A stretch of 55,446 bases of DNA from Giesbergeria sp. (GTDB lineage: Bacteria; Pseudomonadota; Gammaproteobacteria; Burkholderiales; Burkholderiaceae_C). Positions 10,034 to 54,043 of the stretch are shown piece after piece. Position 1 is the stretch's first letter. The number at the start of each line of letters is the position of its first letter. Below the pieces are notes generated by a model, which was not told the origin of the DNA, did no database searches, and saw only the letters and a program-made list of their open reading frames with translations. A program made the position numbers and the translations under genes. The stretch is taken from the NCBI GenBank assembly GCA_023150295.1, contig JAKLLE010000017.1, positions 1 through 55,446 on the forward strand. Direction: 5' to 3'.

Positions 10034-10368
10034 CATCCATGTTGAAGCAAAAAGACTGGTCTACGCAAGCGCGACGGGCGCTGACAGCTCCTGAATTGGT
10101 AGCAAAACTCGCCCAACTGGAAGGCTGGCAGCTGCAGGGCGACGGCGCCGATGTGGCCATTGCCAAGACCTTCCGCTTTGCCAACTACCACGAGACCCTG
10201 GCCTTTGTGAACGCAGTGGCCTTCATTGCCCACACGCAGGACCACCACCCCGACCTGTCCGTGCACTACGACCGCTGCGTGGTGCGCTTCAACACCCACG
10301 ACGTGGGCGGCATCTCCGGCACCGACATCGACTGCGCCCTGCGCGTCGAAGCGCTGCTGGCACCCTGA
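10030..10368 (+). CDS. phhB: Pterin-4a-carbinolamine dehydratase
   Basis: Recycles 4a-hydroxytetrahydrobiopterin after aromatic amino-acid hydroxylation. The 112-residue protein contains the family core: FRFANYHETLAFVNAVAFIA, then the active-site histidines in HTQDHHPDL and the closing RFNTHDVGGIS. The start ATG overlaps the M48 stop by four bases, and rsgA follows 14 bases after the stop, making a three-gene operon. Oddity: residues 7-26, before the conserved core, correspond to a copy of the dispersed 60-base element (10048-10107), so the N-terminus may have been acquired from a repeat. No phenylalanine hydroxylase gene is in the window. Confidence 0.93.
   Translation: MTSMLKQKDWSTQARRALTAPELVAKLAQLEGWQLQGDGADVAIAKTFRFANYHETLAFVNAVAFIAHTQDHHPDLSVHYDRCVVRFNTHDVGGISGTDIDCALRVEALLAP
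10048..10107 (+). repeat. Dispersed 60-base element, copy J (inside phhB)
   Basis: A weaker copy, aligned without gaps: CAAAAA at the left end, GGGCGCT at offset 29 (aligning with the usual AAGCGCT), CAGCT, and GGTAGCAAAA at the right end. It codes for PhhB residues 7-26 on the sense strand in phase 0. Confidence 0.5.
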
Positions 10369-10382
10369 ACGCCTTGCGCAGC

Positions 10383-11327
10383 ATGGCGTCCCCCAACGCG
10401 CAGCACGAAGGCCTGGTGGTGGCCACCCACGGCCGCCACTGCGTGGTGGAAACCAGCGACGGCCAGCAGCGCATCTGCCACCCGCGCGGCAAGAAAAGCC
10501 AGGCCGTGGTGGGCGACCGCGTGCGCTGGCAAGGCGCGGCACCGGGCCAGGGCGAGGAAGGCACCATCGAGAAGGTGCTGGAGCGGCGCAACCTGTTCTA
10601 CCGCCAGGACGAGATCCGCACCAAATCGTTTGCGGCCAACATCGACCAGGTGCTGATCCTGATCGCCGCCGAGCCGGTGTTCTCGGAAAGCCAGCTCGCA
10701 CGCGCCCTCATTGCCGCCGAGGCCGCCCACATCCAGCCGCTGATTGCACTGAACAAGCGCGACCTCACCGAACCCTTCGCCCGCGCCTGGGAGCGCCTGG
10801 CCCCTTACCGCCGCATGGGCGGCGCGCACCCCTACGAGGTGCTGGCGCTGGGCCTGGCCCAGGCCGATGCGGACGACCGCGCCACACTGCAACGCTGCCT
10901 GCAGGGCAAGGCCACGCTGGTGCTGGGCCCTTCGGGCTCGGGCAAGAGCACGCTGATCAACCTGCTGGTGCCCGGCGCCCAGGTGCAAACGGGCGAAATC
11001 TCCCAGGCGCTCAACTCCGGCAAACACACCACCACGGCCACGCGCTGGTACTGGGTGGATCGCGCCAACGGCACGGCGCTGATCGACTCGCCAGGCTTCC
11101 AGGAATTTGGCCTGCACCACCTTGCCCCCACGCAACTGGCGGCCTGCATGCCCGACATTGCGGCCCATGCCAGCGCCTGCCGCTTCTACAACTGCACGCA
11201 CCTGCACGAGCCGGGCTGCGGGGTGATTTCCGCAGTCAATCAGGCGGACAGCGTCGACGGGATCAACGCCAATCGCTATAAAATTTATAGCGACCTGTAT
11301 GCTGAACTAGCGCAGACGCGCTACTGA
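10383..11327 (+). CDS. rsgA: Ribosome small subunit-dependent GTPase A
   Basis: A late 30S-assembly GTPase that releases RbfA. It has 314 residues and the circularly permuted GTPase order: an N-terminal OB fold, then G4 NKRD (124-127), G1 GPSGSGKS (182-189), G2 TTTAT (~216-220) and G3 DSPG (235-238). The C-terminal zinc finger is visible as C266, C271, H273 and C279. ATG 10383 is used; a TTG nine bases earlier is also in frame. It is third in the M48-phhB-rsgA operon. The last ~30 residues contain a degenerate copy of the 60-base dispersed element (residues 285-304), downstream of the zinc finger. Confidence 0.96.
   Translation: MASPNAQHEGLVVATHGRHCVVETSDGQQRICHPRGKKSQAVVGDRVRWQGAAPGQGEEGTIEKVLERRNLFYRQDEIRTKSFAANIDQVLILIAAEPVFSESQLARALIAAEAAHIQPLIALNKRDLTEPFARAWERLAPYRRMGGAHPYEVLALGLAQADADDRATLQRCLQGKATLVLGPSGSGKSTLINLLVPGAQVQTGEISQALNSGKHTTTATRWYWVDRANGTALIDSPGFQEFGLHHLAPTQLAACMPDIAAHASACRFYNCTHLHEPGCGVISAVNQADSVDGINANRYKIYSDLYAELAQTRY
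11236..11295 (+). repeat. Dispersed 60-base element, copy I (3' end of rsgA)
   Basis: A degenerate copy. The right half has GCTAT, a 7-base spacer and ATAGCGA at exactly the usual positions; the left half keeps GGC and AGCG. It codes for RsgA residues 285-304 on the sense strand, in a different codon phase from copies F, H and J. Confidence 0.4.
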
Positions 11328-11334
11328 CCCGGCG

Positions 11335-12414
11335 TTAAACGGCGCAGCGCTCCAGCCACAGCAGGTATTCGTCCCACGCAGGCTCGTAGGCGACCGACAG
11401 TTCCAGCGCCTCGGGGTTGGCCAGGCAGCGGCGTGCCACCTCCAGCGCAGCCTGCACGGCCTGCAGGCTGTCGGATGCGTAGCAGCACACATGGCGCTGG
11501 CCTTCGCCCTGCACCACATGGCTGCAAATGCCTTGCTGCAGGTGCTCCACGACTACCGTCCAGGCTTTTTCGAAGGCACGCGCCGCCGCCTGGGCCTGCG
11601 CTGTGCCAGCAGGCACGCTGGCTTGCACGCGCCAGCCCAGGTCGGCGCGACCGACCAGCGCGTTGGCGGCGCGGTTGACCTGGGCCTGCATTTCCTGCCC
11701 GCTGCCGTTGCGGCCCTTGAGGGTGGCCCAGTCGGCCTGCACCGGGTAGCGCCCGCTGCGCCCCAGCACGTCCAACCAGCAGGCATCGACAGCGGCCACG
11801 GCCTCGTCCAGCGGCACGGGGGCCTGGTTCTGGAAGCCCAGGCCTTCGCTCAGGCCATCTTCCTCGAATTCCACCAGGCCCACTTTCACCGCAAAGTCGT
11901 ACTCGCCCAGCATGTGGTCCAGCAGGATGAAGGCCATGTGCCGCGCGTGCTCGCGCATGTCGGTGGGCACCGTGCAGGCAAACGACAGGGCGAGCGCCAC
12001 CCGGCCTTCGCACTGGCCCACGCGCACGCGCAGGTCTTGGGTGGACAGCTCGAACGCATCCATGCGCATGCCAAAACCCGTGCCGGTGCGCTGGCGAAAC
12101 GCCGTGACCTGCCAGGGCAGCCCCTGGGGCACCTGCGCCACCACGGCCTGCACGGCGGCAAAGTGGTCTGTGCTGCCGTGCGAAGTGAACACCAGGCGGG
12201 CGGCGCCGTCCTGCATATCGGGGCTGGCGCCCTCGGCCTCGGCGGCGACACCGGGAACATGGGCCTCCAGCAGGTCGTTGAGGCGGTTGACCAGCTCCAC
12301 CAGAGGCAGGCTGTTCAGGCTGGTCTGCTCTGCCTGCACGCTGCGCCAGAAGGCCTGGGCCAGCGTGGGCAGTTCGGCGGGGGCGGGGGGCGCAAGCTCG
12401 GGGGTATCGGTCAT
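11335..12414 (-). CDS. Uncharacterised cytosolic protein
   Basis: A 359-residue acidic protein with no signal peptide and no long hydrophobic segment. It has few cysteines, and an aromatic/acidic C-terminus (AYEPAWDEYLLWLERC). I recognise no catalytic motif. A conserved-looking stretch around residues 145-190 (ARHMAFILLDHMLGEYDF) may be a core. It is convergent with rsgA, seven bases apart, and lies upstream of the CobD-like gene on the same strand, separated only by a 60-base dispersed element. The frame is well supported by codon usage and by tight packing between neighbours, so it is a real gene; the function is unknown. Confidence 0.8.
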   Translation of the reverse strand: MTDTPELAPPAPAELPTLAQAFWRSVQAEQTSLNSLPLVELVNRLNDLLEAHVPGVAAEAEGASPDMQDGAARLVFTSHGSTDHFAAVQAVVAQVPQGLPWQVTAFRQRTGTGFGMRMDAFELSTQDLRVRVGQCEGRVALALSFACTVPTDMREHARHMAFILLDHMLGEYDFAVKVGLVEFEEDGLSEGLGFQNQAPVPLDEAVAAVDACWLDVLGRSGRYPVQADWATLKGRNGSGQEMQAQVNRAANALVGRADLGWRVQASVPAGTAQAQAAARAFEKAWTVVVEHLQQGICSHVVQGEGQRHVCCYASDSLQAVQAALEVARRCLANPEALELSVAYEPAWDEYLLWLERCAV

Positions 12415-12429
12415 GGGGATTTCTTTAAG

Positions 12430-12489
12430 TAAAAATGGCTTCTACCGCAATATCCATAAGCGGTAGCAGCTATGATTTTTATAGCAAAC
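12430..12489 (+). repeat. Dispersed 60-base element, copy A (intergenic)
   Basis: A clear copy with TAAAAAT at the left end, a hairpin CTACCGC/GCGGTAG (12442-12448 with 12460-12466), then AGCAGCTAT, a 7-base spacer and TAGCAA. It fills nearly the whole gap between two minus-strand genes and ends at the base before the CobD-like stop codon (12490). Confidence 0.85.
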
Positions 12490-13476
12490 TCAACCCAACA
12501 GGTTGGCCAGGGTCAGCAAGGCGAGCAGCAGCATCCACACCACCACCGAACGCCAGACCAGGCCCACCACGCTGCGCAGGTGGCCCACTTCTGCCTCGCG
12601 GCCGGGGGTGCTTTCGCTCTCGCCGATGGCTGCTTCCACCTGGAAGCCCTGCGTGGACAGTGGCTGCATGCGCGCCTTGAGCGCCTCGCCGCCCAGGCGC
12701 ACGTTGATGGCCCCCGAGGTGGCAGCCAGGATCACGCCGTCGTTGTCGTTGGGAAAGCGCTGCGCGTGAAAGCGCCAGCCCTCGATGGCTTCCTCGAAAC
12801 TGCCCACCACGGCAAAGCACAGCGCCGTCAGGCGTGCGGGCACCCAGTCGATAGCGGTCCAGGCACGGGAGGTGGCCTCGCGCAACGCCGGGCTGGCACG
12901 TTGCAGGCTCTCGTCCCCCCGGTCGACCCAATAGCGCGAGACGAATTCAGCCATGCGGTACAGCACCGCGCCCGTGGGGCCCAGGCCCAGCGCGGCCAGC
13001 ACGGACGTCCAGGCCAGCACGCCAAACATGTGGCGGTGCGCGGCCAGCACAGAGTATTCGATCACATGGCGCACCACCTCGCTGCGCGGCAGGTCGCCCA
13101 CATCCACCTGCTGCCAGTCGGCCAGGCGCTCGCGGGCGCGGGCCTCGTCGCCCATCTCCAGCGCATCACGGATGCCCGTGAAATGGTGGCTGAACTGGCG
13201 AAACCCCAGCGTGATGTAAAGCACCGCCACGCTCCAGAACACCGCTACGGGCCAGCCCACCCACCACATCAGCGCCCAGTGCATCGCCAGCACAAAAAGG
13301 GGAGGCACCAGCACCGCCAGCCCCCAGGCCACCCAGCCGTGGTGCGGGCCGCCAGCGTCAAAGTTGCGGCTGACCGACAGCGCCCACGCACGCAGTCCAC
13401 CGTGGATCGGGTTGCTGCGCGCCAGGGGGCGTGCCTGCTCGATCAGCAGGGCAAACAGGATGGCGAAGAAACTCAT
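12490..13476 (-). CDS. CobD/CbiB-like membrane protein
   Basis: A 328-residue inner-membrane protein of the CobD/CbiB-AmpE type. In the cobalamin pathway CbiB attaches aminopropanol to cobyric acid. The N-terminus FFAILFALLIEQARPL, hydrophobic helices around 45-75 and 80-95, a central PTGAVLYRM segment and a final hydrophobic helix (about 308-325) fit the family. The protein lacks the strict EGNxxD-type context I would expect in a bona fide CbiB, and no cob genes are nearby, so a role in cobalamin synthesis is uncertain; AmpE-like signalling is an alternative. It is co-directional with the NUDIX gene 234 bases upstream. Confidence 0.75.
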   Translation of the reverse strand: MSFFAILFALLIEQARPLARSNPIHGGLRAWALSVSRNFDAGGPHHGWVAWGLAVLVPPLFVLAMHWALMWWVGWPVAVFWSVAVLYITLGFRQFSHHFTGIRDALEMGDEARARERLADWQQVDVGDLPRSEVVRHVIEYSVLAAHRHMFGVLAWTSVLAALGLGPTGAVLYRMAEFVSRYWVDRGDESLQRASPALREATSRAWTAIDWVPARLTALCFAVVGSFEEAIEGWRFHAQRFPNDNDGVILAATSGAINVRLGGEALKARMQPLSTQGFQVEAAIGESESTPGREAEVGHLRSVVGLVWRSVVVWMLLLALLTLANLLG

Positions 13477-13589
13477 GGCCCCGGATCATACCGGCCCCCT
13501 GCGACGGTCGGTCTTTGGAGGCAACGGGGTTCGGTTTCTGCTCTGCTTCCCTTGACACCACGCATCGGTAACGCCCCATAAACCAGCAC

Positions 13590-13728
13590 GCGCCAGGCCA
13601 GCGGCCACCGCGCAAGGGCCGCCCCGCCGCGCTGGTGGCGTTCCCCCTCCGCGAGCGAAGCGAAGCAGAGAGGGGGGAAGGCGCCAAAGGCGACTCAGGG
13701 GGGAGCCCCTTTATCCTGCGCTCATGAA
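13590..13728. repeat. GC-rich structured intergenic element
   Basis: The gap between the NUDIX stop (13711) and the CobD-like start (13476) holds a strongly structured GC-rich block: GGCGCCAAAGGCG near 13680-13692, a CCCCTC/GAGGGGGG pair flanking a GCGAGCGAAGCGAAGC tract, and GGCC-rich hairpins at 13590-13625. From memory, sequences like this are common between genes in Comamonadaceae; only one copy is present here, so repetitiveness cannot be shown from the window. Confidence 0.4.
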
Positions 13729-14424: not shown

Positions 14425-14504
14425 GCTGCGAGGGTGCCACAAAAACAAAAAGCCGCTGCGGGCAAATGCCAGCAGCGGCCTGTGCAAAACAACGGGTGGG
14501 GGCC

Positions 14505-14891: not shown

Positions 14892-14999
14892 GCTTGCATC
14901 CTAGCGATCTTGCCCGCGCCAGAATTGGCTTTGTCAGGACGGACCTGTGTGCCTTGCACCCTTGCAAGGCGGCCGGGTAGAGGATCGAAAAGCCTTTGA

Positions 15000-17347: not shown

Positions 17348-17818
17348 ATGAAAAGCAAAACCACGGCCGCATGGCTGACCTTCATCGGAGGACCGCTGGG
17401 CCTGCACCGCTTCTATCTCCATGGATTCTGGGACCTGCCCGGCTGGCTGCTGCCGGTGCCTACGGCCCTGGGTCTGTACGGCATTGAGCGGGTGCAGCAG
17501 CATGGGCAGGACGACCACCTGAGCTGGCTGCTCATCCCCCTGCTGGGCTTTACCTTTGCGGGCTGCGCCCTGCGCGCCATTCTGTATGCGCTCACCCCAC
17601 CCGAGCGCTGGAACGCCCGGTTCAACCCAGGGGCGGTATCAGACACCCCCGCAGGGCACACGCACTGGGGCACCATTGGTGCGATTGTGGCCTCCCTGAT
17701 GGTGGGGACCGGGGTGCTGATGGCCAGCCTGGCGTTCAGCTTTCAGCGCTATTTCGAATACCAGATCGAGGAAGCGCGCAAAATATCCCAGCCGAGCCAA
17801 GCCCCCATAGAAAAATAG
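17348..17818 (+). CDS. Small membrane protein with TM2-like N-terminus
   Basis: A 156-residue protein with an N-terminal TM2-type motif (GGPLGLHRFYL, about 14-24), hydrophobic segments near 28-45, 58-78 and 108-130, and a charged C-terminus. It lies seven bases after the acetyltransferase and is probably cotranscribed with it. Oddity: the last two codons and the TAG stop (GAA AAA TAG) come from the left end of dispersed element copy B, so the insertion probably reset the C-terminus. The function is unknown. Confidence 0.75.
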   Translation: MKSKTTAAWLTFIGGPLGLHRFYLHGFWDLPGWLLPVPTALGLYGIERVQQHGQDDHLSWLLIPLLGFTFAGCALRAILYALTPPERWNARFNPGAVSDTPAGHTHWGTIGAIVASLMVGTGVLMASLAFSFQRYFEYQIEEARKISQPSQAPIEK

Positions 17819-17869
17819 CGCACAGCGCTTGTATATCAAGCGCTGTGTGCTATGTTTTTCATAGCGAAT
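17810..17869 (+). repeat. Dispersed 60-base element, copy B (hairpin terminator between convergent genes)
   Basis: A clear copy. It supplies the stop codon of the TM2-like gene and ends at the base before the stop codon of the Pit gene on the other strand. Its centre forms a 15-bp hairpin (17817-17831 with 17837-17851, loop TATAT) followed by TATGTTTTTC, so it probably also terminates transcription. Confidence 0.88.
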
Positions 17870-18880
17870 TTAGTAGAGTTGCAGGCTCACCCAGTAAGCC
17901 ACCGCAGCCACAAAGGCGCTGGCCGGAATCGTCAGAATCCAAGCCCAGACGATGTTGCCCGCCACACCCCAGCGCACGGCGCTGGCGCGCTGCGTGGAAC
18001 CCACACCCACGATGGCGCCGGTGATGGTGTGCGTGGTGGACACCGGGATGCCCAGCACGGTGGCCAGGAACAGCGTCATGGCGCCCCCCGTTTCGGCACA
18101 GAAGCCACCCACGGGCTTGAGCTTGGTGATTTTTTGCCCCATGGTCTTGACGATGCGCCAGCCACCAAACATGGTGCCCAGGCCGATGGCGGCATAGCAG
18201 ATCACAATGGTCCAGAGCGGGGGCGCAGTGTCTGCCGTGGACGAATACCCGGTAGCAATGAGCAGCAGCCAGATGATGCCGATCGTCTTCTGCGCGTCGT
18301 TGCCACCATGGCCCAGGCTGTAGGCACCGGCCGAGAGCAGTTGCAGGCGGCGGAACCACTGATCCACGCTGCTGGGGCGGGTGCGGCGGAACAGCCAGGC
18401 CACGGCCACCATCATCAGCGAACCCAGCGTGAAGCCCAGCAGCGGCGACACAAAGATGAACGCCACGGTCTTGAGAATGCCCTTGGCGATGAGCGCGCTG
18501 GCCCCGGCCTTGGCAATGACGGCACCCACAATGCCGCCGATCAGCGCGTGCGAGGAGCTGCTGGGGATGCCGTAGTACCAGGTGATCACGTTCCAGGTGA
18601 TGGCGCCCACGAGTGCACCGAAGACCACATGGGTATCGACCACGCCGGGCTCGACAATGCCCTTGCCGATGGTGGCCGCCACGCTCAGGTGGAACACAAA
18701 AATGGCGACAAAGTTGAAAAAGGCGGCAAACACCACGGCCTGGCCGGGGCGCAGCACCCCGGTGGACACCACCGTGGCAATGGAGTTGGCCGCGTCGTGG
18801 AAGCCATTCATGAAATCGAACACGACGGCCAGCGCCACCAGCAGCACCACGACCCACAGGGCGGTTTGTACGGTATCCAT
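17870..18880 (-). CDS. pit: Low-affinity inorganic phosphate transporter, PiT family
   Basis: A 336-residue inner-membrane carrier (phosphate-metal:proton symport). Both inverted PiT signatures are visible: DFMNGFHDAANSIATVVSTG (about 22-41) and, in the second half, SLGHGGNDAQKTIGII; the family GIPSSSSHALIGGIVGA and GIPVSTTHTITGAIVGVG repeats are also present. About nine or ten helices. The DUF47 gene lies 25 bases upstream on the same strand, the classic PiT-DUF47 pair. The stop codon abuts dispersed element copy B. Confidence 0.95.
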   Translation of the reverse strand: MDTVQTALWVVVLLVALAVVFDFMNGFHDAANSIATVVSTGVLRPGQAVVFAAFFNFVAIFVFHLSVAATIGKGIVEPGVVDTHVVFGALVGAITWNVITWYYGIPSSSSHALIGGIVGAVIAKAGASALIAKGILKTVAFIFVSPLLGFTLGSLMMVAVAWLFRRTRPSSVDQWFRRLQLLSAGAYSLGHGGNDAQKTIGIIWLLLIATGYSSTADTAPPLWTIVICYAAIGLGTMFGGWRIVKTMGQKITKLKPVGGFCAETGGAMTLFLATVLGIPVSTTHTITGAIVGVGSTQRASAVRWGVAGNIVWAWILTIPASAFVAAVAYWVSLQLY

Positions 18881-20047: not shown

Positions 20048-20061
20048 GGCAAAAATACCAA

Positions 20062-20121
20062 TAAAAAAGGCCTGAAAGGTAATACCATCAAGCGCTAGAA
20101 GCTATCAATAGTATAGCAATC
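20062..20121 (+). repeat. Dispersed 60-base element, copy C (intergenic)
   Basis: A clear copy in the 119-base gap between the DUF486 start (20047) and livF stop (20167): TAAAAAA at the left, AAGCGCTAGAAGCTAT at offset 29, a 7-base spacer and TAGCAATC. The flanking GGCCTGA / TCAGGCC arms (20069-20075 and 20120-20126) form a 7-bp inverted repeat around it. Confidence 0.85.
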
Positions 20122-20166
20122 AGGCCCTGTGCAACGCCCCCTGCACAACGGGAGCGTGCCCGCGGG

Positions 20167-20892
20167 TCACTCGCCCAGGTAGGCGGCGCGCACCTTGGGG
20201 TCGCTCAGCAGTTCCTTGCCAGGGCCGGTCATGGTGATCAGGCCGGACTCCATCACGTAGCCACGGTCGGCAATGGCCAGCGCGCGGCTGGCGTTCTGCT
20301 CGACCAGCACGATGGTCACGCCCAGGGCATACACGTCGCGCACCACTTCGAAGATCTTGTCCACCATGATGGGCGACAGGCCCATGGAAGGCTCGTCCAG
20401 CAGCAGCACCTTGGGCTGGCTCATCAGCGCGCGGCCCATGGCCAGCATCTGCTGTTCGCCGCCGGACATGGTGCCGGCCAGTTGGTCCTTGCGCTCGCGC
20501 AGGCGCGGGAAGATGGTGAACATCTTCTCGATGTCGGCCAGGATGCCGGCCTTGTCGCTGCGCGTGTAGGCGCCCATCTGCAGGTTTTCGGTGATGGTCA
20601 TGCGAGCAAACACGCCTCGGCCTTCGGGCACCATGACCAGGCCTTTCTTGACCAGATCCCAGGCGCCCTTGCCCTTGATGCTCTGGCCCAGGTATTCGAT
20701 GTCGCCATCGTTCATCGCCAGCGTGCCGGTGATGGCCTTCATGGTGGTGGTCTTGCCCGCACCGTTGGAGCCGATCAGCGAGACCAGCTCGCCCTCGCGC
20801 ACCTCAAAGTCCACGCCCTTGACAGCCTGGATGCCGCCGTAGGCCACCTTCAGGCCCTTGACCTTCAGCAATACGTTCGTCTTGTCGGCCAT
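20167..20892 (-). CDS. livF: Branched-chain amino-acid ABC transporter, ATPase LivF
   Basis: A 241-residue ATPase. Walker A GSNGAGKT (about 37-44), ABC signature MSGGEQQ (about 145-151), Walker B LLLDEP (about 165-170) and the HAAT-specific LVEQN H-loop region are all present. It couples ATP hydrolysis to uptake of leucine, isoleucine, valine or similar amides. It begins two bases after livG ends and is last in the livHMGF operon. Confidence 0.95.
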   Translation of the reverse strand: MADKTNVLLKVKGLKVAYGGIQAVKGVDFEVREGELVSLIGSNGAGKTTTMKAITGTLAMNDGDIEYLGQSIKGKGAWDLVKKGLVMVPEGRGVFARMTITENLQMGAYTRSDKAGILADIEKMFTIFPRLRERKDQLAGTMSGGEQQMLAMGRALMSQPKVLLLDEPSMGLSPIMVDKIFEVVRDVYALGVTIVLVEQNASRALAIADRGYVMESGLITMTGPGKELLSDPKVRAAYLGE

Positions 20893-20894
20893 GC

Positions 20895-23976: not shown

Positions 23977-25314
23977 TTATTTCTCGCCGTGCGCTTCGTC
24001 GGGCAGCGACCTTCCCTGCGCTGCCGCCTGGGCATTGCGCTGACGCAATTCATCGAGCTTGTCTGCAATGCGGATCTCCAGCCCGCGCCGCACCGGCTGG
24101 TAGAAGCCCGGTTCATCCATACCATCGGGCAGGTAGCGCTCGCCAGCGGCAAAGCCGCCCTCCTCGTCGTGCGCGTAGCGGTAGTCTTTGCCGTAGTCCA
24201 ACTCTTTCATGAGCTTGGTGGGCGCATTGCGCAAATGCATGGGCACGGGGCGCGTGCCGTCCTGTTTGACGAAGGCGCGCGCCGCGTTGTAGGCCTTGTA
24301 CACGGCGTTGGACTTGGGCGCCACCGCCAGATAGACCACGCATTCGGCCAGTGCCAGCTCGCCCTCGGGGCTGCCCAGGCGCTCGTACACCTCGGCGGCA
24401 TCCAGCGCCAGGCGCAGGGCGCGCGGGTCGGCCAGGCCCACGTCCTCGGCGGCCATGCGTACCATGCGCCGGGCCATGTAGCGCGGGTCGGCGCCGCCGT
24501 CGAGCATGCGCACCAGCCAGTACAGCGCGGCGTCGGGGTCGGAGCCGCGCACCGACTTGTGCAGCGCGCTGATGGTGTCGTAGAACTGCTCGCCGCCCTT
24601 GTCGTAGCGGCGCATGCGCTCGCCCAGCACCTTGAGCACCCAGGCATCCGAGATTTCGGCCAATTGTTCCTGCTGCGCCGCCATCTCCAGCGTTTCCAGC
24701 GTGTTGAGCAGGCGCCGCGCATCGCCGTCGGCATAGGCCACGAGGCGCTCGGCTGCTTCACTTTCGATAGCACGAAGCGCTTGTCCAGATTGGGCCAGAG
24801 CCACAATTTGCTTCAAATCATCGCTGGAGAGCGGCTGCAACACGTACACCGCGGCGCGCGACAGCAGGGCCGAGTTGACCTCGAACGAGGGGTTCTCGGT
24901 GGTCGCGCCGATAAAGGTAAACAGCCCGCTTTCCACATGCGGCAAAAAGGCATCTTGCTGGCTTTTGTTGAAGCGGTGCACCTCGTCCACAAAGACGAGG
25001 GTGCGCTGCTGCATCAGCCCGTCGCGCGCGCTTTCGGCCAACTGCACGGCGTCGCGGATGTCCTTCACGCCGCCCAGCACCGCGCTGATGCTGATGAACT
25101 GCGCATCGAACGCATCGGCCATGAGCCGCGCGATGGTGGTCTTGCCCACACCCGGTGGCCCCCAGAGGATGCAGCTGTGCGGCCGCCCCGACTCGAACGC
25201 CAGCCGCAGCGGCATGCCCGGCCCCAGCACATGCTGCTGGCCGATGACTTCGGAAAGCTGGCGCGGACGCAGGCGCTCGGCCAGGGGCTGGTGGGGAGTG
25301 GCAGGCGGTTTCAC
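23977..25314 (-). CDS. rarA: Replication-associated recombination AAA+ ATPase
   Basis: RarA (MgsA) is a clamp-loader-like AAA+ protein acting at stalled forks. GTG 25314 gives 445 residues, close to the family length of about 447, and puts PLAERLRPRQLSEVIGQQH at the N-terminus where it belongs; the frame runs on to a TTG at 25377. Walker A is GPPGVGKTT, Walker B is VFVDEVHRFN, sensor 1 is FIGATTENPSFEV, and the C-terminal tetramerisation part (GGADPRYMARRMVRMAAEDV) is intact. It follows lolA in the ftsK-lolA-rarA order known from many proteobacteria. Residues 169-188 overlap a weak copy of the dispersed element (copy H). Confidence 0.94.
   Translation of the reverse strand: MKPPATPHQPLAERLRPRQLSEVIGQQHVLGPGMPLRLAFESGRPHSCILWGPPGVGKTTIARLMADAFDAQFISISAVLGGVKDIRDAVQLAESARDGLMQQRTLVFVDEVHRFNKSQQDAFLPHVESGLFTFIGATTENPSFEVNSALLSRAAVYVLQPLSSDDLKQIVALAQSGQALRAIESEAAERLVAYADGDARRLLNTLETLEMAAQQEQLAEISDAWVLKVLGERMRRYDKGGEQFYDTISALHKSVRGSDPDAALYWLVRMLDGGADPRYMARRMVRMAAEDVGLADPRALRLALDAAEVYERLGSPEGELALAECVVYLAVAPKSNAVYKAYNAARAFVKQDGTRPVPMHLRNAPTKLMKELDYGKDYRYAHDEEGGFAAGERYLPDGMDEPGFYQPVRRGLEIRIADKLDELRQRNAQAAAQGRSLPDEAHGEK
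24751..24810 (-). repeat. Dispersed 60-base element, copy H (inside rarA)
   Basis: A weaker copy on the rarA sense strand in phase 0: CAAATT at the left end, GGCTCTGGCC, then AAGCGCTTCGTGCTATC at offset 29, AAAG and AGCA. It codes for residues 169-188, a helical Ala/Gln-rich stretch. Confidence 0.45.
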
Positions 25315-25454
25315 GGTAGCTGTCGATGGTAGCGGGCAAACGCCACCCTGCGCGGCAGGCCCCGAGGGCGCCAGCAAACCTGTGCTGCATCCAGGCCGTG
25401 CCAGCCGCCATCGGACTGGCGCTGGTGCTGGTGGCCTGAATACCCGTCAGCACG

Positions 25455-26087
25455 CTACTGCTTGAGCACATCTGCCCCTGCCGGGGGCTTGAACTGGAAG
25501 GTGGCCACCGGTAGCTGCGGGTTGGCCTGCAGCTTGGCAAAGCGCAGAGTCGAGCGCTGGCCAAAGCTGTCGAGGATCTCCAGCACCGCCAACTGCCCCT
25601 CGCGGAAACCCACGCGCACGTTCTGCAACTGCCCTTCCTTGGCCTTGGGAACCGCCTGCACCCACTCAAGGCCGTCCTGCGCGGGGGTGGATTCGAGCGT
25701 GAAATCGGCGCGCAGCGCCTGCAGGTCGGGTGCCGAGGCCAGCAGCGCCGCAGGCGTGCTGCCCAGGGCCTGCGCCTGCGGGCGCTGGGTGACCTGGTTC
25801 AGGTCCACGTCGTAAAACCAGAGCGTCTGGCCGTCGGCCACGATGGTTTGCTCGAACGGCTTCTGGTACACAAAGCGGAAACGGCCCGGCCGCTGGAACT
25901 CGAAGCTGCCGCTGGACGTCTTCTGGCGCGCAGCCTGCCCGTCCTTGGGCGGCGTGGTGACCACCTGCGTGAAATCGGCCCGCGCCGATTGCGTGGCCTT
26001 CATGAAATTCTCAAGGTCTTTCAGGCCATCAGCGCTCGCCCACTGGGCGCAAGCAGCTATCAAAACAGTAGCAAAAATACGTTTCAT
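25455..26087 (-). CDS. lolA: Outer-membrane lipoprotein carrier protein
   Basis: A periplasmic chaperone that takes lipoproteins from LolCDE to LolB. The protein has 210 residues. ATG 26087 opens MKRIFATVLIAACAQWASA, a good signal peptide with cleavage after ASA (residue 19). Family features: LENFMKATQSARADFTQVV, the FEFQRPGRFRFVYQKPFEQ hydrophobic-cavity strand and DGQTLWFYDVDLNQVTQR. It follows ftsK by 20 bases. Oddity: the whole signal-peptide region (residues 4-24) overlaps a copy of the dispersed element (copy G) in antisense orientation. Confidence 0.95.
   Translation of the reverse strand: MKRIFATVLIAACAQWASADGLKDLENFMKATQSARADFTQVVTTPPKDGQAARQKTSSGSFEFQRPGRFRFVYQKPFEQTIVADGQTLWFYDVDLNQVTQRPQAQALGSTPAALLASAPDLQALRADFTLESTPAQDGLEWVQAVPKAKEGQLQNVRVGFREGQLAVLEILDSFGQRSTLRFAKLQANPQLPVATFQFKPPAGADVLKQ
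26017..26076 (+). repeat. Dispersed 60-base element, copy G (antisense to lolA signal peptide)
   Basis: A clear right half: GCGCAAGCAGCTATC, AAAAC and GTAGCAA, nearly identical over 30 bases to copy F in rsmB. The left half keeps AGGCCATCAGCGCT at matching positions, but the A-run is lost. It codes, on the opposite strand, for LolA residues 4-24. Confidence 0.8.
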
Positions 26088-31704: not shown

Positions 31705-32053
31705 CAATGAATCTCCTGTAAACAAACGGCAGGCAACCCCAGCGGCCACCCATGTAACTTATTATGCAGAGGCATCGTGCCCCGCAACAGTCAAATTTCT
31801 TGACGCTCCTGCGGCAGCGCACTCAGAGCCTGCGAGATTTTCAGTTCCAGCAATAGACTCAACACAGTGAGGCGCCCATGCCCTGCGTACAAATGCAACG
31901 AAACGATTGGAGTCGAAGGTCATTTCGCGGGGCCAGTTTGCGTTGAGTGAGGGCAGGATGAGCCGTCGATCTCGGCCTCTTTTGCGCGCTTCAGCGTCCC
32001 AAGGCGAAGCTCGATCATCCGCTTCAAATATTTGATTGTGTCGCCATACAGCC
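31705..32053. other. 349-base gap between pilin and brnA with no convincing gene
   Basis: A minus-strand frame of 109 codons (31762-32091) overlaps the end of brnA, but its protein shows no domain, no ribosome site and a composition unlike its neighbours. In another minus-strand frame a fragment reading YGDTIKYLKRMIELRLGTL followed by KRAKEAEIDGSS (around 32030-31935) looks more protein-like and could be a decayed gene. The base composition is lower in GC than the surroundings. This may be an old insertion scar linked to BrnTA. Confidence 0.35.
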
Positions 32054-32341
32054 TCACTTTGCGTGAGCCACGTAATCCCTGAGTACGCCATCCATCCGCG
32101 CTTGCCAGCCCGCGCCGGTGCTTCGGAAATACTCCACCACCTCGGGGCTGTAGCGCACCGAAATTTGCACCTTGGTGGCCTCGGATTTTGGACGCCCGCC
32201 CTTGTTGACTGTGGCGCGCGCCAGCATGGCGTCTGTCAGTTCTGGCAGATCGTCGTATTCGGAGGCCTGAATTTGGTGGGCATCAACCTTTTTCAGATCA
32301 GATCCCAAGGAGCGGGCCGATGCGGTCTTTTTCGCGGTCAT
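32054..32341 (-). CDS. brnA: Antitoxin, BrnA family
   Basis: A 95-residue antitoxin with a C-terminal ribbon-helix-helix DNA-binding domain. The family signature KVQISVRYSPEVVEYFRSTG (about 57-76) followed by GWQARMDGVLRDYV is clear; the N-terminal half (DLKKVDAHQIQASEYDDLPE) is the toxin-wrapping arm. In known BrnTA systems the antitoxin dimer represses the operon. It starts 44 bases inside the end of brnT, so the two are translated together. Confidence 0.92.
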   Translation of the reverse strand: MTAKKTASARSLGSDLKKVDAHQIQASEYDDLPELTDAMLARATVNKGGRPKSEATKVQISVRYSPEVVEYFRSTGAGWQARMDGVLRDYVAHAK

Positions 32342-32573
32342 TGGCTTTCCTCATGCTGAAGATGTGGCGATCCGCGCCACGCGGCGTGTAGCCCACCACC
32401 ACCATGCGCCCGGCCAACAGGCCGTAGCAGATGATGCGGGTTTCACCATAGTCCTTGCGTGTGTCTTCGACTTCAACCGTGGTGCCGCCAAACACGGCGG
32501 CGGCATCTGCAAAGTCCAACCCGCGTTCTTGCAGGGTTTTACTGCGCTTGGCCAAGTCGAATGTCACATTCAT
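32298..32573 (-). CDS. brnT: Ribonuclease toxin, BrnT family
   Basis: A 91-residue toxin of the BrnT type (RelE-like fold, ribosome-independent RNase in Brucella). The family pattern is visible: FDLAKRSKTLQERGLDFADA, an acidic DTRKDYGETRIICYGLLAGR and the closing YTPRGADRHIFSMRKANDRE, which contains the conserved arginine and histidine. The start is ATG 32573; a TTG just before (32576) is possible. The 20-bp palindrome 32577-32596 touches the start region, and the predicted promoter puts the first transcribed base at or next to the A of the ATG, so the mRNA may be leaderless. Confidence 0.92.
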   Translation of the reverse strand: MNVTFDLAKRSKTLQERGLDFADAAAVFGGTTVEVEDTRKDYGETRIICYGLLAGRMVVVGYTPRGADRHIFSMRKANDREKDRIGPLLGI

Positions 32574-32576
32574 CAA

Positions 32577-32596
32577 GTTATTGTAGCTACAATAAC
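32577..32596. promoter_or_regulatory. Perfect 20-bp palindrome, predicted BrnA operator
   Basis: Bases 32577-32596 equal their own reverse complement (GTTATTGTAG and its mirror). The palindrome covers the -10 box of the brnTA promoter and ends four bases before the start codon, so a bound ribbon-helix-helix repressor would block transcription directly. Confidence 0.85.
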
Positions 32597-32608
32597 CAAC
32601 CCTAGCAA
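32580..32608 (-). promoter_or_regulatory. Promoter of brnT-brnA
   Basis: On the minus strand TTGCTA (32608-32603), exactly 17 bases, and TACAAT (32585-32580). Transcription should start about seven bases on, near 32573, which is the A of the brnT ATG. Confidence 0.75.
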
Positions 32609-32703
32609 GGCATCAGACGCTGCGCATCTCCAGCGCCATCCGCGTGGTCAGCCCCAGATGCTGTTCATGTCAAAAGGCATACGGAATTCATGCCACTGTT
32701 TGT

Positions 32704-33789
32704 TCACAGGCACTCAGACGCGGCCAGCGGAACACACAACACAAACACCACGCCCTGAGCTTCCTCGCTGGCCTGCAAATCGCCACCCGCTTCGCGCAGC
32801 GAGCGCCGCGCCTGGTACAGCCCCATACCCGAGCCCGTGGGAGACTTGAGCGGCTCGAACGCCCTGCGCGGCCACGGTGTGGCCAAGTGCGGGGTATGCA
32901 AGCGCGCTTGCAGTGCGCCCTCATGCGCCGTGCATTCGCAACGCAGCGGCACGCCCCCATGGCGTGCCCTGCTGTCGCGTGCGAGGTTGGAAAAAATATT
33001 GTCCAGCGCACGCTCCAAGGCCAGGGCCTGGGCAGGCTCCAGCACCAGTGGCGGCATCGCGCTGCCCTCGCCCGTGCCCATGTCGATGGCCAGGCCCGCC
33101 AGTTCTGCCGCGTTGTGCAGCAGGTCCAGGGCCTGGACGGGCGGTTCGTCGGCGGCGGGCGCCTGCGTTGGCGCCTCGGTCGCAGCCAGCAGCTTGTGGG
33201 CACGCGCCTGCAGCAGGGGCGCCTGGCGCTGCAGGCGCTGCGCCAAACGCGGGAGCTGCTCGGGCGTGGCGGCACCAAACTCCTCGGCCAGCAGGCCCAC
33301 CCATTGAGCGAGGTTGCGCATGTCGTGCTGCCAATACAACTGCACCTGCGCGCGCTGCGCCAGCGCCACGGCCACCGCCTGGGTGCGCTCGCGCATGCGC
33401 GAGAGCCAGGTTTGCGCAAACACGTCCAGCACGGCCAGCGCCAGCACCCGCGCTTCGTCGGTGCGGGCCACGTCGGCCCAGCGCAGTTCGATCTGGCAAT
33501 CCGGCCCGGCGCTGAGCGTCTGGCGCGGCCAGTGGTCAGCCAAGGGCTGCCCCCATTGGCCGCGCACCGCGTCGCCAAACCACACCCCCTCCCAAGCGAT
33601 GCCCACAATGCCCGAGCGCTCCAGAATGGGCCAGGCACGCTCGGGCCAGCGCAGCGGGTGCATGTCTGCGGGCAGGGCCAGCAGCTCGGCCAGGCAGCGG
33701 CGCACGCGCCGGCCACGGTGCCACACTGCCCACGCGGCGAGCAGCAGCACCAGCCCCAGGGCCACCAGCATCCAGGGCAATGAACTCAT
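32704..33789 (-). CDS. Sensor histidine kinase at the end of the pilus operon
   Basis: A 361-residue kinase with one N-terminal membrane helix (about 5-24). The phospho-acceptor box is HDMRN (H155) in QLYWQHDMRNLAQW, an HDxxN form like PrsK-type kinases rather than the common SHELRTP. The ATP-binding part has an N-box (RALDNIFSNLARDS) and a G-box (GSGMGLYQARRSLREAGG). There is no obvious periplasmic domain; the region 40-140 is a possible cytosolic sensor. Its start overlaps the response-regulator stop by four bases (ATGA), so the two form a pair. It is last in the operon, adjacent to brnTA. Confidence 0.85.
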   Translation of the reverse strand: MSSLPWMLVALGLVLLLAAWAVWHRGRRVRRCLAELLALPADMHPLRWPERAWPILERSGIVGIAWEGVWFGDAVRGQWGQPLADHWPRQTLSAGPDCQIELRWADVARTDEARVLALAVLDVFAQTWLSRMRERTQAVAVALAQRAQVQLYWQHDMRNLAQWVGLLAEEFGAATPEQLPRLAQRLQRQAPLLQARAHKLLAATEAPTQAPAADEPPVQALDLLHNAAELAGLAIDMGTGEGSAMPPLVLEPAQALALERALDNIFSNLARDSRARHGGVPLRCECTAHEGALQARLHTPHLATPWPRRAFEPLKSPTGSGMGLYQARRSLREAGGDLQASEEAQGVVFVLCVPLAASECL

Positions 33790-36182: not shown

Positions 36183-37076
36183 TCAGGGCGTCTTGCGGGG
36201 CCCCAGGCCCGCAGCCATGGCTACCGATATGACCGTGGGTCGCAACACGATGTCGTCGAAATATGCTGCGGGATTTTCTGCGTACTCGGCATCGATATAG
36301 AAATCACCAGGAGCTCCGGTACGCGGAGGAGACGCATTGAAGTTGAGGTTCTCCAAAGGTCCAGGACCGGGCCCATTGGCTGCATTCAGGTACACCCCTT
36401 CAGCAGTGTAGCCGCCGACCCTGTTGGCTCCATGGCTGATCAGCGCAAGAGCCGCTCCCGTCATCCCGGTTCGCGACGCCAGTTCAGGCGCAGCCCCAGG
36501 GTTACAGGCATTGGCGTTGCACACCCGAAAACCACTGGCCTGCAAAAAAGTCTGAATCTGTGGGGTCATGGTGGCCGGATCAAGACTGTGCATATCCATC
36601 CCTGCAGGGCGCGTCAATGCCGAAGCGGCCACCGTGGCGCCAGCCCAAACCCGGTAGGTGATCATGGTGTTCCAGGCGTCCATCGCATCACCCTGCGCCA
36701 ACCCCAGAGTACGCCAGGGCACCACCCCATTGTCCAGGCCGGCGGCAGTGCAGGCGGCAGTCCCTGGGTGGGGTTGTTCCAAGCCTTGCTCTGGGTTGCC
36801 AGCCGCCAAAGCACCGTTCGCCGGACACGGCAGTCGACCATTGACCACCACAAACCGCACCATGGCCTGCTCCAGCGCCTCCAGCTTGGCGCGGGTTTCC
36901 TTGCGGCGGTTGTTGTCCAGAAAAGTGTTGGTGGCGGGCAGGAAGACCGCAGCCAGCAGACCCACGATGAGCAGGACCAACGCCATCTCGACCAGCGAAA
37001 AGCCGCGCACCCCGTCCCCTCCGGCATGTGGAGGCCGTGATGTTGTGATGGCAGAACCGCTTGCTATATTTTTCAT
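36183..37076 (-). CDS. Large prepilin-like protein (pseudopilin)
   Basis: A 297-residue prepilin: a 25-residue leader ending RG, cleavage before FSLVE (G25/F26, Glu30 at +5), then the helix MALVLLIVGLLAAVFLP. The body has GRLPCPANGAL, VPWRTLGLAQGDAMDAWNT and YFDDIVLRPTV, shared with the following 469-residue protein, so the two are paralogues of different length. It is much larger than a typical major pilin. Oddity: its ATG (37076) and first codons (MKNIAS) are supplied by dispersed element copy D, and no Shine-Dalgarno is visible ahead of it. Confidence 0.82.
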   Translation of the reverse strand: MKNIASGSAITTSRPPHAGGDGVRGFSLVEMALVLLIVGLLAAVFLPATNTFLDNNRRKETRAKLEALEQAMVRFVVVNGRLPCPANGALAAGNPEQGLEQPHPGTAACTAAGLDNGVVPWRTLGLAQGDAMDAWNTMITYRVWAGATVAASALTRPAGMDMHSLDPATMTPQIQTFLQASGFRVCNANACNPGAAPELASRTGMTGAALALISHGANRVGGYTAEGVYLNAANGPGPGPLENLNFNASPPRTGAPGDFYIDAEYAENPAAYFDDIVLRPTVISVAMAAGLGPRKTP

Positions 37077-37119
37077 AGCTATTTGCGCTTGTGGATTGTG
37101 CGTTACCGCCCTATTTTTT
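37059..37119 (-). repeat. Dispersed 60-base element, copy D (mshK stop / pseudopilin start)
   Basis: A clear copy with a one-base length difference: AAAAAATAG at the left end gives mshK its last lysines and stop; AAGCGC, then TAGCTATG gives the pseudopilin its start codon, followed by AAAAATATAGCAA. It fills the whole 34-base gap between the two genes and more. Confidence 0.85.
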
Positions 37120-37599
37120 ATGCAACGTCCCTGGCGCCACCACGTCGTTCAGAACGGCGCCGGTGTCGCTGACCTGCTGCCCAGGGCGCAGCACGATGTC
37201 GCTCTCGCCGCTCAGGCGCAGGCGCACTTCGCCATGGTCGATGTGCACGGTGCGGCCCGCAAAGGGTTCACCGTGCTGCAGCATCTGGCCGTTGATCCAG
37301 GCGGTGGCGTTCTTGCGGCTCAGGGCCAGGCCGTCCAATTGGAAAACCGGGGGCGGAGCCTGCGGGGCCGACGCGGTGGGGGCTGTTGTCTGATCCACGC
37401 CGCCCGGTGGTGCTTTGCGCGCCGCCTCGATGCTGGCGCGCTGCTGCGGGGTGTAGAAAACGCGCGGCCACAGGCCGGCTGCTTCGGGGTCGCTGGGCTG
37501 CGGCACTGCACTGGCGGCGCCCGCCGGGCCCGCCAGCAGGCAGCCCCATGCGGCCAGCAGGGCGGCAAGGCGATGGGGCGCTGGAGCAGGGGATGGCAT
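37111..37599 (-). CDS. mshK: MshK-like pilus biogenesis protein
   Basis: A 162-residue exported protein with a signal peptide (RLAALLAAWGCLLAGPAGAA, about 9-28). The C-terminal region LDGLALSRKNATAWINGQML and DHGEVRLRLSGESDIVLRPG matches the strand pattern of MshK/GspB-type periplasmic domains, which carry a short OB-like fold beside the secretin. The assignment rests on weak motif similarity and position (after I and J homologues, 21 bases from mshJ). The C-terminal lysines and stop come from dispersed element copy D. Confidence 0.6.
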   Translation of the reverse strand: MPSPAPAPHRLAALLAAWGCLLAGPAGAASAVPQPSDPEAAGLWPRVFYTPQQRASIEAARKAPPGGVDQTTAPTASAPQAPPPVFQLDGLALSRKNATAWINGQMLQHGEPFAGRTVHIDHGEVRLRLSGESDIVLRPGQQVSDTGAVLNDVVAPGTLHKK

Positions 37600-47634: not shown

Positions 47635-48954
47635 TTACTTGCGCTGCCAGACGGCGGCAAAGAACCCGTCGGTCTGGTGGCGGTGCGGCCACAGGCGCAC
47701 GAAGCGGCTGCCGGACTCGCCGCCGCTGCACAGGCTGGCGGCCTCGGGCACCTTGAGCTGGGCCAGCAGTTCGCCCGCATCCAGCGGCTCGAAATCGCGG
47801 TGTGCCTGGGTGAAAGCTTCGGCAATGGCCTCGTTTTCCTGCGGCAGCATGCTGCAGGTGGCATAGACCAGGCGCCCACCCGACTTGGGCAGGCGGGCGG
47901 CGCTCTCCAGGATGGCGGTCTGCTTGGCGACCAGCTCCTCCAGCGCCTGGGGCGACTGGCGCCACTTGAGGTCGGGGTTGCGGCGCAGCGTGCCCAGTCC
48001 GGAACAGGGTGCATCGACCAGCACGCGGTCGATCTTGCCCGCCAGGCGCTTGACGCGCTCGTCGCGCTCATGCGCGATGGCCGCCGGGTGCACGTTGGAC
48101 AGCCCGCTGCGCGCCAGCCGGGGCTTGAGCGCGTCGAGGCGGTGGGCCGACACATCAAACGCGTACAAGCGCCCGGTGCTGCGCATGGTGGCGCCGATGG
48201 CCAGGGTCTTGCCCCCGGCACCGGCGCAGAAGTCCACCACCATTTCGCCGCGCTTGGCGTCCAGCAGCAGGGCCAGGAGCTGCGAGCCTTCGTCCTGTAC
48301 CTCGATGGCGCCACGCTCGAACGCGGGCAGCTTGGTCAGCGCGGGTTTGCCCTGCACGCGCAGGCCCCAGGGAGAATATGGTGTTGCTACGGTTTTGATA
48401 GCTGCTTGCGCAAGCTCCTTCTGCACCAGCTCGCGTTTTTCCTTCAAAACGTTGACGCGCAGGTCCAGCGGCGCGCTGGTGGACAAGGCCTGCACCATGG
48501 GCCAGAACTCCGTGCCCAGCTGTGCCTTGAGCGGCTCCACCAGCCATTCGGGCAGGTTGTGGCGGTGGCGCTCCATCAGGTCGTCCTGGGAGATCGCATC
48601 GCACTGGTCCAGCCACTGCTTTTCGCGCTCGTTCAGCGCGGACTTGAGGAAGTCACGCGGCCCGTGCTGGGCCTGCGGGTTGCTGCGGCGCGCCTCTTCG
48701 TCCTGCCAGTGGGCAAAGCCCAGGATGGCCAGGCGCCGCTCCTTGGGGCCGCTGCCCGAGGGCGCCAGGTGGTCGAACAGCAGCTTTTTGCGCAGCACGG
48801 CATAGGCCGTTTCGGCCAGGGCGGCGCGCTCGCGCGGGCCGAGTTGGCGGTGGTCGCGAAAAAAGCGGGACACCACGGCGTCGGCCGGGTGTTCCAGGGT
48901 CAGGGTCAGGCGCACCAGTTCGGCGCAGGCTTGCAAAAGGGCGTTGGGATGCAT
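47635..48954 (-). CDS. rsmB: 16S rRNA m5C methyltransferase, RsmB/NOP family
   Basis: A 439-residue SAM-dependent enzyme. It has an N-terminal NusB-like helical region (FRDHRQLGPRERAALAETAY), then the Rossmann methyltransferase: VQDEGSQLLALLL, VVDFCAGAGGKTLAIGA, the catalytic DAPCSGLGTLRRNPD and YATCSMLPQENE, giving both active cysteines. RsmB (C967) is most likely; RsmF is the alternative within the family. Oddity: residues 172-191, just before the catalytic core, are encoded by dispersed element copy F in frame. Confidence 0.9.
   Translation of the reverse strand: MHPNALLQACAELVRLTLTLEHPADAVVSRFFRDHRQLGPRERAALAETAYAVLRKKLLFDHLAPSGSGPKERRLAILGFAHWQDEEARRSNPQAQHGPRDFLKSALNEREKQWLDQCDAISQDDLMERHRHNLPEWLVEPLKAQLGTEFWPMVQALSTSAPLDLRVNVLKEKRELVQKELAQAAIKTVATPYSPWGLRVQGKPALTKLPAFERGAIEVQDEGSQLLALLLDAKRGEMVVDFCAGAGGKTLAIGATMRSTGRLYAFDVSAHRLDALKPRLARSGLSNVHPAAIAHERDERVKRLAGKIDRVLVDAPCSGLGTLRRNPDLKWRQSPQALEELVAKQTAILESAARLPKSGGRLVYATCSMLPQENEAIAEAFTQAHRDFEPLDAGELLAQLKVPEAASLCSGGESGSRFVRLWPHRHQTDGFFAAVWQRK
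48382..48441 (-). repeat. Dispersed 60-base element, copy F (inside rsmB)
   Basis: A clear copy on the rsmB sense strand, phase 0: GAAAAAC at the left end, TTGCGCAAGCAGCTATC at offset 29, AAAAC, GTAGCAA. The right half is nearly identical to copy G, which lies in lolA in the opposite orientation. It codes for RsmB residues 172-191, including the stretch KELAQAAIKTVAT. Confidence 0.85.
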
Positions 48955-48988
48955 GGGTGGGATTGTCCCACCCTTGGGGCTGAGCAGG

Positions 48989-50842: not shown

Positions 50843-50917
50843 GCGGCAGCCCTCTCCTGTCGGTGTGATTCGGTCAGGCTACCATGGTACCCGCGCCGGG
50901 CGGGGGCGGCGGGGGCA

Positions 50918-52707: not shown

Positions 52708-52814
52708 CCCTCGTCTCGCAAAGCGCGCAATCGGGCCAGTGTAGGCAAGCGCCTGGCCGCCAGGGCGGCGAACTGGCGGGTGTTTGCCCGGCTGTCCCAG
52801 GCTTGGAACCGGGC

Positions 52815-52836
52815 TTTGTATCAGCGCCGGTACAAA
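52815..52836. promoter_or_regulatory. Inverted repeat in the regulator / EF-hand divergent gap
   Basis: TTTGTATC (52815-52822) and GGTACAAA (52829-52836) pair with one mismatch across a six-base spacer. A partial direct repeat ACAAAC (52832-52837 and 52841-52846) and a TTGACA hexamer (52851-52856) follow. The arrangement suits a regulator site before the EF-hand gene; the promoter -10 is unclear. Confidence 0.4.
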
Positions 52837-52927
52837 CAGGACAAACCCCCTTGACATGCCCCGCCAAGAATGAAGCCAGGCTCCCAGGCCCCTGGTGGCC
52901 AACAACCCTGGAAAGAAAGGAATGACT

Positions 52928-53938: not shown

Positions 53939-53949
53939 GGCGCCCCTGT

Positions 53950-53975
53950 CCCGCCGTGCGCTTGCGCACGGCGGG
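53950..53975. terminator. GC-rich hairpin after the EF-hand gene
   Basis: A perfect 11-bp stem (53950-53960 with 53965-53975) and a CTTG tetraloop, 12 bases after the stop codon, without a T-run. It lies between convergent genes and probably ends or stabilises the EF-hand transcript. Confidence 0.55.
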
Positions 53976-53983
53976 AATTCAAG

Positions 53984-54043
53984 CAAAAATCAGCTGCAGC
54001 GCCCGTATTTATTGCGCTAGCAGCTATAATTTTGATAGCAATT
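53984..54043 (+). repeat. Dispersed 60-base element, copy E (3' end of purN)
   Basis: A clear copy: CAAAAAT at the left end, TTGCGCTAGCAGCTAT at offset 29, a 7-base spacer and TAGCAATT. Read on the minus strand it encodes the last six residues of PurN (LLSKL preceded by part of Q) and its TAG stop. Confidence 0.88.

Follow-up and report, generated by a model that had tools for sequence, protein, structure and literature searches.

We analysed a stretch of 55,446 nucleotides from a Giesbergeria sp. genome (contig JAKLLE010000017.1 of assembly GCA_023150295.1, positions 1 to 55,446), referred to here as the window, which carries ten copies of a dispersed repeat, together with a transposase-like gene elsewhere in the genome that probably belongs to the same system. 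All ten sites proposed in the initial annotation were recovered, with their places and strands. The copies are given below with their scores against a 72-column profile, which was trained on 92 copies, all from outside the window, and with orthologous sites in relatives (our working numbers for genomes begin with G, those for loci with L). The assignment of copies to genes or to intergenic DNA, here and in the counts that follow, comes from a simple gene caller of our own that was trained on the window.

Copy J, 10037 to 10108, plus strand: N-terminal part of a pterin-4a-carbinolamine dehydratase gene (10030 to 10368, plus; Pfam); profile score 25.5; seven relatives score 2 to 46 (G308, 46).
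Copy I, 11225 to 11296, plus strand: 3' end of an RsgA-type GTPase gene (10374 to 11327, plus); 23.6, the weakest of the ten; G305 scores 27 and G310 17; absent in G308 (-24) and G318 (-38).
Copy A, 12419 to 12490, plus strand: intergenic, adjoining the stop of a CobD/CbiB-like gene (12490 to 13476, minus); 77.3; present in G308, G310 and G318; DNA fold z -3.4.
Copy B, 17799 to 17870, plus strand: stop of a PHO4-type transporter gene (17870 to 18880, minus); 43.1; long near-perfect stem with fold z -7.8 and a compensatory stem change in G305.
Copy C, 20051 to 20122, plus strand: intergenic, downstream of an ABC ATPase gene (20167 to 20892, minus); 71.9; present in G302, G305, G307, G310 and G318, absent in G301 and G308.
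Copy H, 24750 to 24821, minus strand: inside a rarA/MgsA-type AAA+ gene (23977 to 25377, minus; Pfam MgsA_C); 23.7; seven relatives score 17 to 42.
Copy G, 26006 to 26077, plus strand: antisense to the N-terminal, signal-peptide-like part of lolA (25455 to 26087, minus; Pfam LolA); 53.4; seven relatives score 35 to 62.
Copy D, 37058 to 37129, minus strand: intergenic; 64.8; six relatives score 48 to 96.
Copy F, 48381 to 48452, minus strand: inside an RsmB/F-type methyltransferase gene (47635 to 48954, minus); 44.1.
Copy E, 53973 to 54044, plus strand: between two predicted genes; 78.0; fold z -2.4; G310 scores 68, and no other relative is alignable.

All ten sites are genuine members of one family. 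The core AAGCGC-N4-AGCTAT-N8-TAGCAA is found with 0 to 2 mismatches at copies A to G, 3 at H and 4 at I and J; the sequence blocks are those initially described, but the spacer before TAGCAA has eight bases and not seven. Order-3 shuffles of the window give 0.1 expected core matches at 4 mismatches, and the two further window matches of this kind (1928 and 7833) do not score in the profile. The window sites score 24 to 78, against a maximum of -8 in 60 shuffles and of -0.6 in 400 kb of DNA drawn from two genomes of this family that lack the element. The refuting outcome named in the initial annotation, matches no commoner than in shuffled sequence, is clearly contradicted. The single additional window match above zero (18.9) is a reverse-strand shadow of copy A. 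Copies F and G, which had been singled out as nearly identical, agree at 27 of 28 bases.

The extent of the element was defined by a gap-free alignment of 96 copies, from which, as from the context count below, copies lying too near a locus end were excluded. Information spans the columns from about -50 to +20 relative to the G of GCTAT, with almost none beyond, and the boundaries are thus shared between copies as had been claimed, at a length of about 70 bp instead of 60. The rough consensus is TTTnAAnnnAAAATtGGCCTCTAGCGC-loop-AAGCGCaAGCAGCTAT-N7-ATAGCAAA, with a GC content of 40% compared with 68% in the flanks. The copies are well diverged, with a median identity of 58% and a nearest neighbour of at most 0.81. 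On the strand opposite to that of the initial annotation, the hairpin foot of the consensus reads ATAG(CT), with no GTAG or CGTC tag; the 96 copies were selected via GCTAT, which fixes the foot base, and the foot in B-type profile matches agrees with the consensus, while copy J reads AGCTCC. Five of the ten window copies fold better as DNA than shuffles (z < -2), and no helix covariation was seen between copies. Among the listed places of the strict copies counted below, no pair lies within 200 bp, so that inverted pairs like the bacterial interspersed mosaic elements (BIMEs) or the doublets of repetitive extragenic palindromic (REP) sequences known as REPINs were not found at this level, weaker neighbours being outside the genome-wide scan. 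An Rfam search of the window returned one tRNA and no element match over the gathering score.

The element is abundant and, as far as the sampled genomes go, confined in its distribution. The 3.69-Mb genome contains 134 matches to a strict core, GCTAT-N7-ATAGCAA, and 81 to this core preceded by AGCGC-N4-A, and the reversed control of each gave 0. Profile matches of at least 20 number 10 in the 55-kb window and 55 in 400 kb of G305. Extrapolation of this density suggests about 570 to 670 copies per genome, which, with the strict counts, upholds the earlier estimate of hundreds. Within the genus (g1), the core is present in 26 of 26 genomes at 1 to 134 copies each; the short core was found in 104 of 250 genomes of the family, and the longer core in 4 of 300 genomes of an order-wide sample (our own included), all from one family, of which only 9 had been sampled. 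Among the named stretches listed (at least 116), 100 bear names that we take to belong to Comamonadaceae, one comes from an Undibacterium metagenome-assembled genome, and 15 names are uninformative; carriers include Acidovorax and related bacteria. The proposal of a dispersed REP-like family is supported, with carriers mostly in Comamonadaceae.

The elements lie mainly between genes. Outside predicted genes are 85 of the 96 copies, comprising 25 in convergent gaps, 23 and 23 in tandem gaps in the two orientations, 10 in divergent gaps and 4 with one neighbour missing, and the remaining 11 are in genes; element edges cluster a few bases from stop codons. Transcription terminators or RNA elements of the 3' untranslated region, selected in place as a hairpin and T-run just past the stop codon, would fit these edges, the share of convergent gaps, the compensatory change in copy B and the AATTTT that follows the hairpin on the strand opposite to the initial annotation's. 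However, a directional terminator role was rejected because orientation is even between tandem genes and because divergent and in-gene copies occur, and the missing covariation and the window copies without a significant fold also argue against this explanation, which we regard as improbable. A polar motif of the KOPS (FtsK-orienting polar sequence) type was rejected as well, since 100 listed places of G305 show no replichore orientation bias (p 0.53).

The initial annotation had advised a search for a REP-associated tyrosine transposase (RAYT) gene, and the genome contains one Y1_Tnp gene (Pfam), located on G000:C78. It lies directly upstream of gltB (read as such from a class-II glutamine amidotransferase gene), and this order is kept in 85 of 91 RAYT loci, including 17 of 20 from element-free genomes; in the sequence examined for L269, L295, L296, L300, L399 and L412, gltB does not adjoin the RAYT. 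Terminal repeats of the GGGGTCAG type (fitting GGGGWSAS) flank both sides in 51 of the 91 loci and the 3' side in 82, and the 5' repeat is present in none of the three genomes of the window's clade (our own, G305 and G310). In the two RAYT proteins given to Pfam only Y1_Tnp appeared at E < 0.1, with no C-terminal helix-turn-helix or DnaA-like domain; NCBIfam NF047646 scored the G438 protein at 78.8 bits and our own at 68.1, both below the cut-off of 80, and a PDB sequence search with a RAYT gave no match. The degenerate RAYTs of G310, G171 and G546 escaped Pfam and were recovered by protein queries, which gave no match in G363 and G479 (assemblies 74% and 70% complete); none was located in G312 and G323. 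Separately, some genus members (L331, L332, L333) encode at another locus a second protein that matches part of the RAYT in a longer frame of 360 to 382 aa. The genome G339, of the same family, has sixteen Y1_Tnp matches with E-values to 2e-44, resembling an IS200-type expansion, as well as 39 strict elements.

Two observations link this gene to the repeat. First, an element-like copy stands at the 3' end of 54 of 71 RAYTs from element-bearing genomes and of 0 of 20 from (nearly) element-free ones, as called by a loose regular expression or a profile score of at least 15. By group, the linked copy was found in 20 of 20 genus members whose RAYT is live, 13 of 20 RAYTs of other element-rich genera, 1 of 3 in the window's clade and 20 of 28 in a second batch, in which the call at L411 looks spurious. 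The 20 RAYTs of element-rich genera were picked via Pfam matches and are biased to intact genes, and part of the second batch was picked for having no Pfam match; the element-free group retains L295, L296 and L300, distant Y1 proteins that were left out of the trees, and includes G385 and G490 with one strict match each. Most linked copies run into TGTCCC without the ATAGCAA end, and a profile score of at least 15 at the RAYT stop was reached on its own by 7 of the 20 RAYTs of other element-rich genera and by 3 of the 20 from live genus members. Upstream copies at this threshold were seen in 4 of 63 RAYTs, direct in L269 and L314 and inverted in L275 and L321. Second, genus g165 has a variant of its own. 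Its dispersed copies, taken from 20 fetched loci, differ in the central sequence, and the copies beside the RAYT in G354 and G553 share this centre, scoring 74 and 67 with the g165 matrix versus 30 and 13 with that of g1. Nothing else points as strongly to a pairing of RAYT and repeat as these matching variants, which come from two genomes of one genus.

The same linkage bears on whether the repeat could be a conventional miniature inverted-repeat transposable element (MITE) that an unrelated transposase moved, the copy beside the RAYT being a mere passenger. A length of about 70 bp, AT-richness and loosely similar ends are MITE-like, and, as elements are common at gene ends, the one at the stop of the RAYT could have landed there by chance; however, a target-site duplication is absent, and both the 54 of 71 versus 0 of 20 contrast and the g165 variants are hard to explain in this way. 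We consider such a MITE very unlikely.

A feature that the initial annotation had not foreseen is the loss of the catalytic residues of the RAYT in the window's clade. The active site comprises the HUH motif, a Tyr and, four positions after it, an Asn (N119 in the TnpA-REP of E. coli), according to sections of PMC6006769. In our genome, G310 and G305, the first His is replaced by R, R and S, respectively, the Tyr by G and the Asn by A; the other printed motif blocks are largely kept and the frames are open. All four residues are present in 76 of 88 RAYTs, and the set is incomplete in 12. Comparable losses are seen in other genera, and two or more residues are missing from ten RAYTs (our own, G305, G310, G478, G464, G171, G546, G533, G473 and G386), while G331 and G307 lack one (the Asn in G307). 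On the tree, 6 changes are required, of which well-supported branches force at least 3, with long branches leaving some placements unsure; sampling by Pfam status means that these counts give no rate of loss. The ratio of nonsynonymous to synonymous divergence (dN/dS) between RAYTs is 0.10 within the window's clade, 0.19 for G171 and G546, and 0.02 to 0.27 for live pairs. The dead RAYT of the window's clade is thus under purifying selection. As a separate observation, dS among the dead RAYTs is 0.9 to 1.7 compared with 0.22 to 0.38 in the adjacent gltB (L328, L329 and L330, from G310, our genome and G305), which suggests fast evolution or exchange at the locus.

Element turnover was then compared with the state of the RAYT, in directional, non-independent comparisons whose live group includes G307 (no Asn) and G312 and G323 (no RAYT found). 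Comparisons between dead-RAYT genomes gave 73 elements present and 0 absent, mixed comparisons 231 present, 7 ambiguous and 18 absent, and live comparisons 186 present, 51 ambiguous and 58 absent; the contrast is only suggestive because live pairs are also more diverged. The expectation that elements would be absent at orthologous sites in sister species therefore fails for the closest relatives (73 of 73 present); it is borne out by some more distant relatives alone. Within genus g1, strict copies are most numerous in the three genomes with a dead RAYT, which form one clade only (134, 113 and 108, versus a median of 31 in 20 others). As a side observation, about 0.9 kb of the window (31828 to 32706) is unmatched in the closest relatives G305 and G310 although both sides match, the sides being directly adjacent in G305; it is possibly strain-specific DNA.

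The absences themselves revealed two kinds of site, which the initial annotation did not anticipate. Intergenic absences (36 pairs, 9 elements) are a median of 78 bp shorter, with none of equal length, whereas of the in-gene absences (40 pairs, 15 elements) 34 are equal in length and none is 40 to 95 bp shorter. At site F, exactly 72 bases are found in 17 of 17 relatives whether or not the element sequence is present; in the element-poor G300, G315 and G321 and in G304, the stretch is encoded by other codons without element sequence. An in-gene insertion was accordingly rejected at F, where the Pfam ferredoxin-like match also has equal lengths. In-gene matches are not chance, because genes hold 8 of the 55 matches from the 400 kb of G305 while nothing exceeds -0.6 in 400 kb of element-free DNA. 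Elements do occur both in and between genes, as described earlier, but the in-gene sites bear no insertion footprint, and overwriting, selection or decay of older sequence may all fit them.

A further explanation takes the repeats as genome-wide binding sites of a chromosomal protein of the nucleoid, segregation or uptake type, kept by selection and with only an incidental or secondary link to the RAYT. In-gene variation without length change (exactly 0 in 34 of 40 absent pairs), the presence of the F sequence in most relatives and not in the element-poor ones or G304, and long persistence at orthologous positions favour this explanation. However, the intergenic sites resemble insertions or deletions, the replichore bias is missing in the G305 places, and the copies have diverged to 58% median identity; at about 70 bp and with a centre that varies by lineage, the motif is also far longer than the types of binding site known to us. 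We judge this explanation to be rather unlikely.

Our preferred interpretation, to which we assign a probability of about 0.64, is a REP-like family of non-autonomous elements partnered by a single-copy, fixed Y1 gene of RAYT/TIRYT-like type, with a dead RAYT retained in this clade. The RAYT would have recognised single-stranded DNA by the hairpin and the conserved ends of the element, and it would have spread copies mainly to gaps where genes end. The RAYT of the window's clade has lost its chemistry, so that the window copies would now be a static, slowly diverging population; the dead protein is nevertheless kept, most simply as a still DNA-binding protein, perhaps acting on these repeats.

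Several results weigh against this interpretation. G300, G315 and G321 have only 1 to 2 strict copies despite an intact RAYT, where the element system seems lost or never amplified, and the RAYT is also present in element-free genomes. The RAYTs of our genome and G305 have no element at the 3' end, and the third g165 genome, G473, has 155 strict copies and a damaged RAYT with no copy beside it. Part of the linkage could also stem from a single early insertion next to the stop of the RAYT that lineages then inherited, which is plausible because elements often abut stop codons. No crisp empty site was found, apart from one doubtful candidate (G318/G308) where the intergenic DNA is disordered; a shortening of 40 to 95 bp is seen in just 12 of the 36 intergenic pairs, 3 lie within 6 bases and only 1 is tightly anchored. 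The many offset pairs scanned in 96 copies gave no consistent target-site duplication, which fits REP-type movement and proves nothing. In-gene copies need a mechanism different from insertion. Finally, dead pairs involving G464 have dN/dS of 0.4 to 0.5, and dS values above 1 are saturated. A variant that addresses the in-gene copies is that the RAYT, dying repeatedly in different genera, became a non-cutting DNA-binding protein with the hundreds of repeats as its sites, and that in-gene sites arose without insertion, by codon selection or by templated overwriting with single-stranded repeat DNA; we hold this to be possible but doubtful.

The system can be compared with those already reported. 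As described in parts of PMC2817692 and PMC3733652, the GTAG/CGTC REPs and REPINs are likewise high-copy, palindrome-bearing elements, mostly downstream of genes and without target duplication, and their Y1 RAYTs are likewise single-copy, in a fixed place and adjoined by an element copy. The present family shares the high copy number, the dispersed and mainly extragenic places and, in two g165 genomes, a RAYT-linked copy of the genome's own variant, but it is about 70 bp long with ATAG at the hairpin foot and no close pairs among the listed places, half of the window copies fold no better than shuffles, and the RAYT-linked copy is mostly on the 3' side only, instead of two inverted copies flanking the gene. 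The HUH and Y---NP signature of RAYT/TnpA-REP proteins is found in 76 of 88 RAYTs and not in the window's clade. A Y1 protein of about 233 aa with GGGGTCAG-type terminal repeats resembles the TIRYT pattern (TnpA-Y1 subclass 2.1) in the sections of PMC3733652 concerned, and according to sections of PMC6006769 genes of subclass 2.1 have no REP-like sequence nearby. In the present loci, by contrast, the 3' repeat encloses an element-like copy and catalytic residues were lost in several lineages, and we call the present RAYT TIRYT-like only, without subclass assignment. The BRE of Bordetella is, in the portions of PMC3110155 concerned, 75 to 91 bp long, 69% GC, often tandem, and reported in Comamonadaceae in intergenic DNA and some genes; the present element, at about 70 bp and 40% GC and not tandem in the listed places, is set apart from it by description, not by alignment.

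In non-subscription literature on repeats or RAYTs of Comamonadaceae, Acidovorax or Polaromonas we found no description of this element, and a term search of the text of PMC3733652 found no mention of Acidovorax, Delftia, Polaromonas, Rhodoferax or Comamonas. RAYTs are called domesticated, with function unknown, in sections of PMC8049555 and PMC6006769, and the covered portions of non-subscription papers on inactive or domesticated RAYTs do not describe loss of catalytic residues. The family extends REP-like systems to Comamonadaceae and connects a repeat with a RAYT of TIRYT-like type, for which reports describe no REPs. Lineages in which the cutting residues are lost and the gene is still under purifying selection would separate a host function from transposition, and dead-RAYT lineages such as that of the window would make the host function of RAYTs testable by gene removal.

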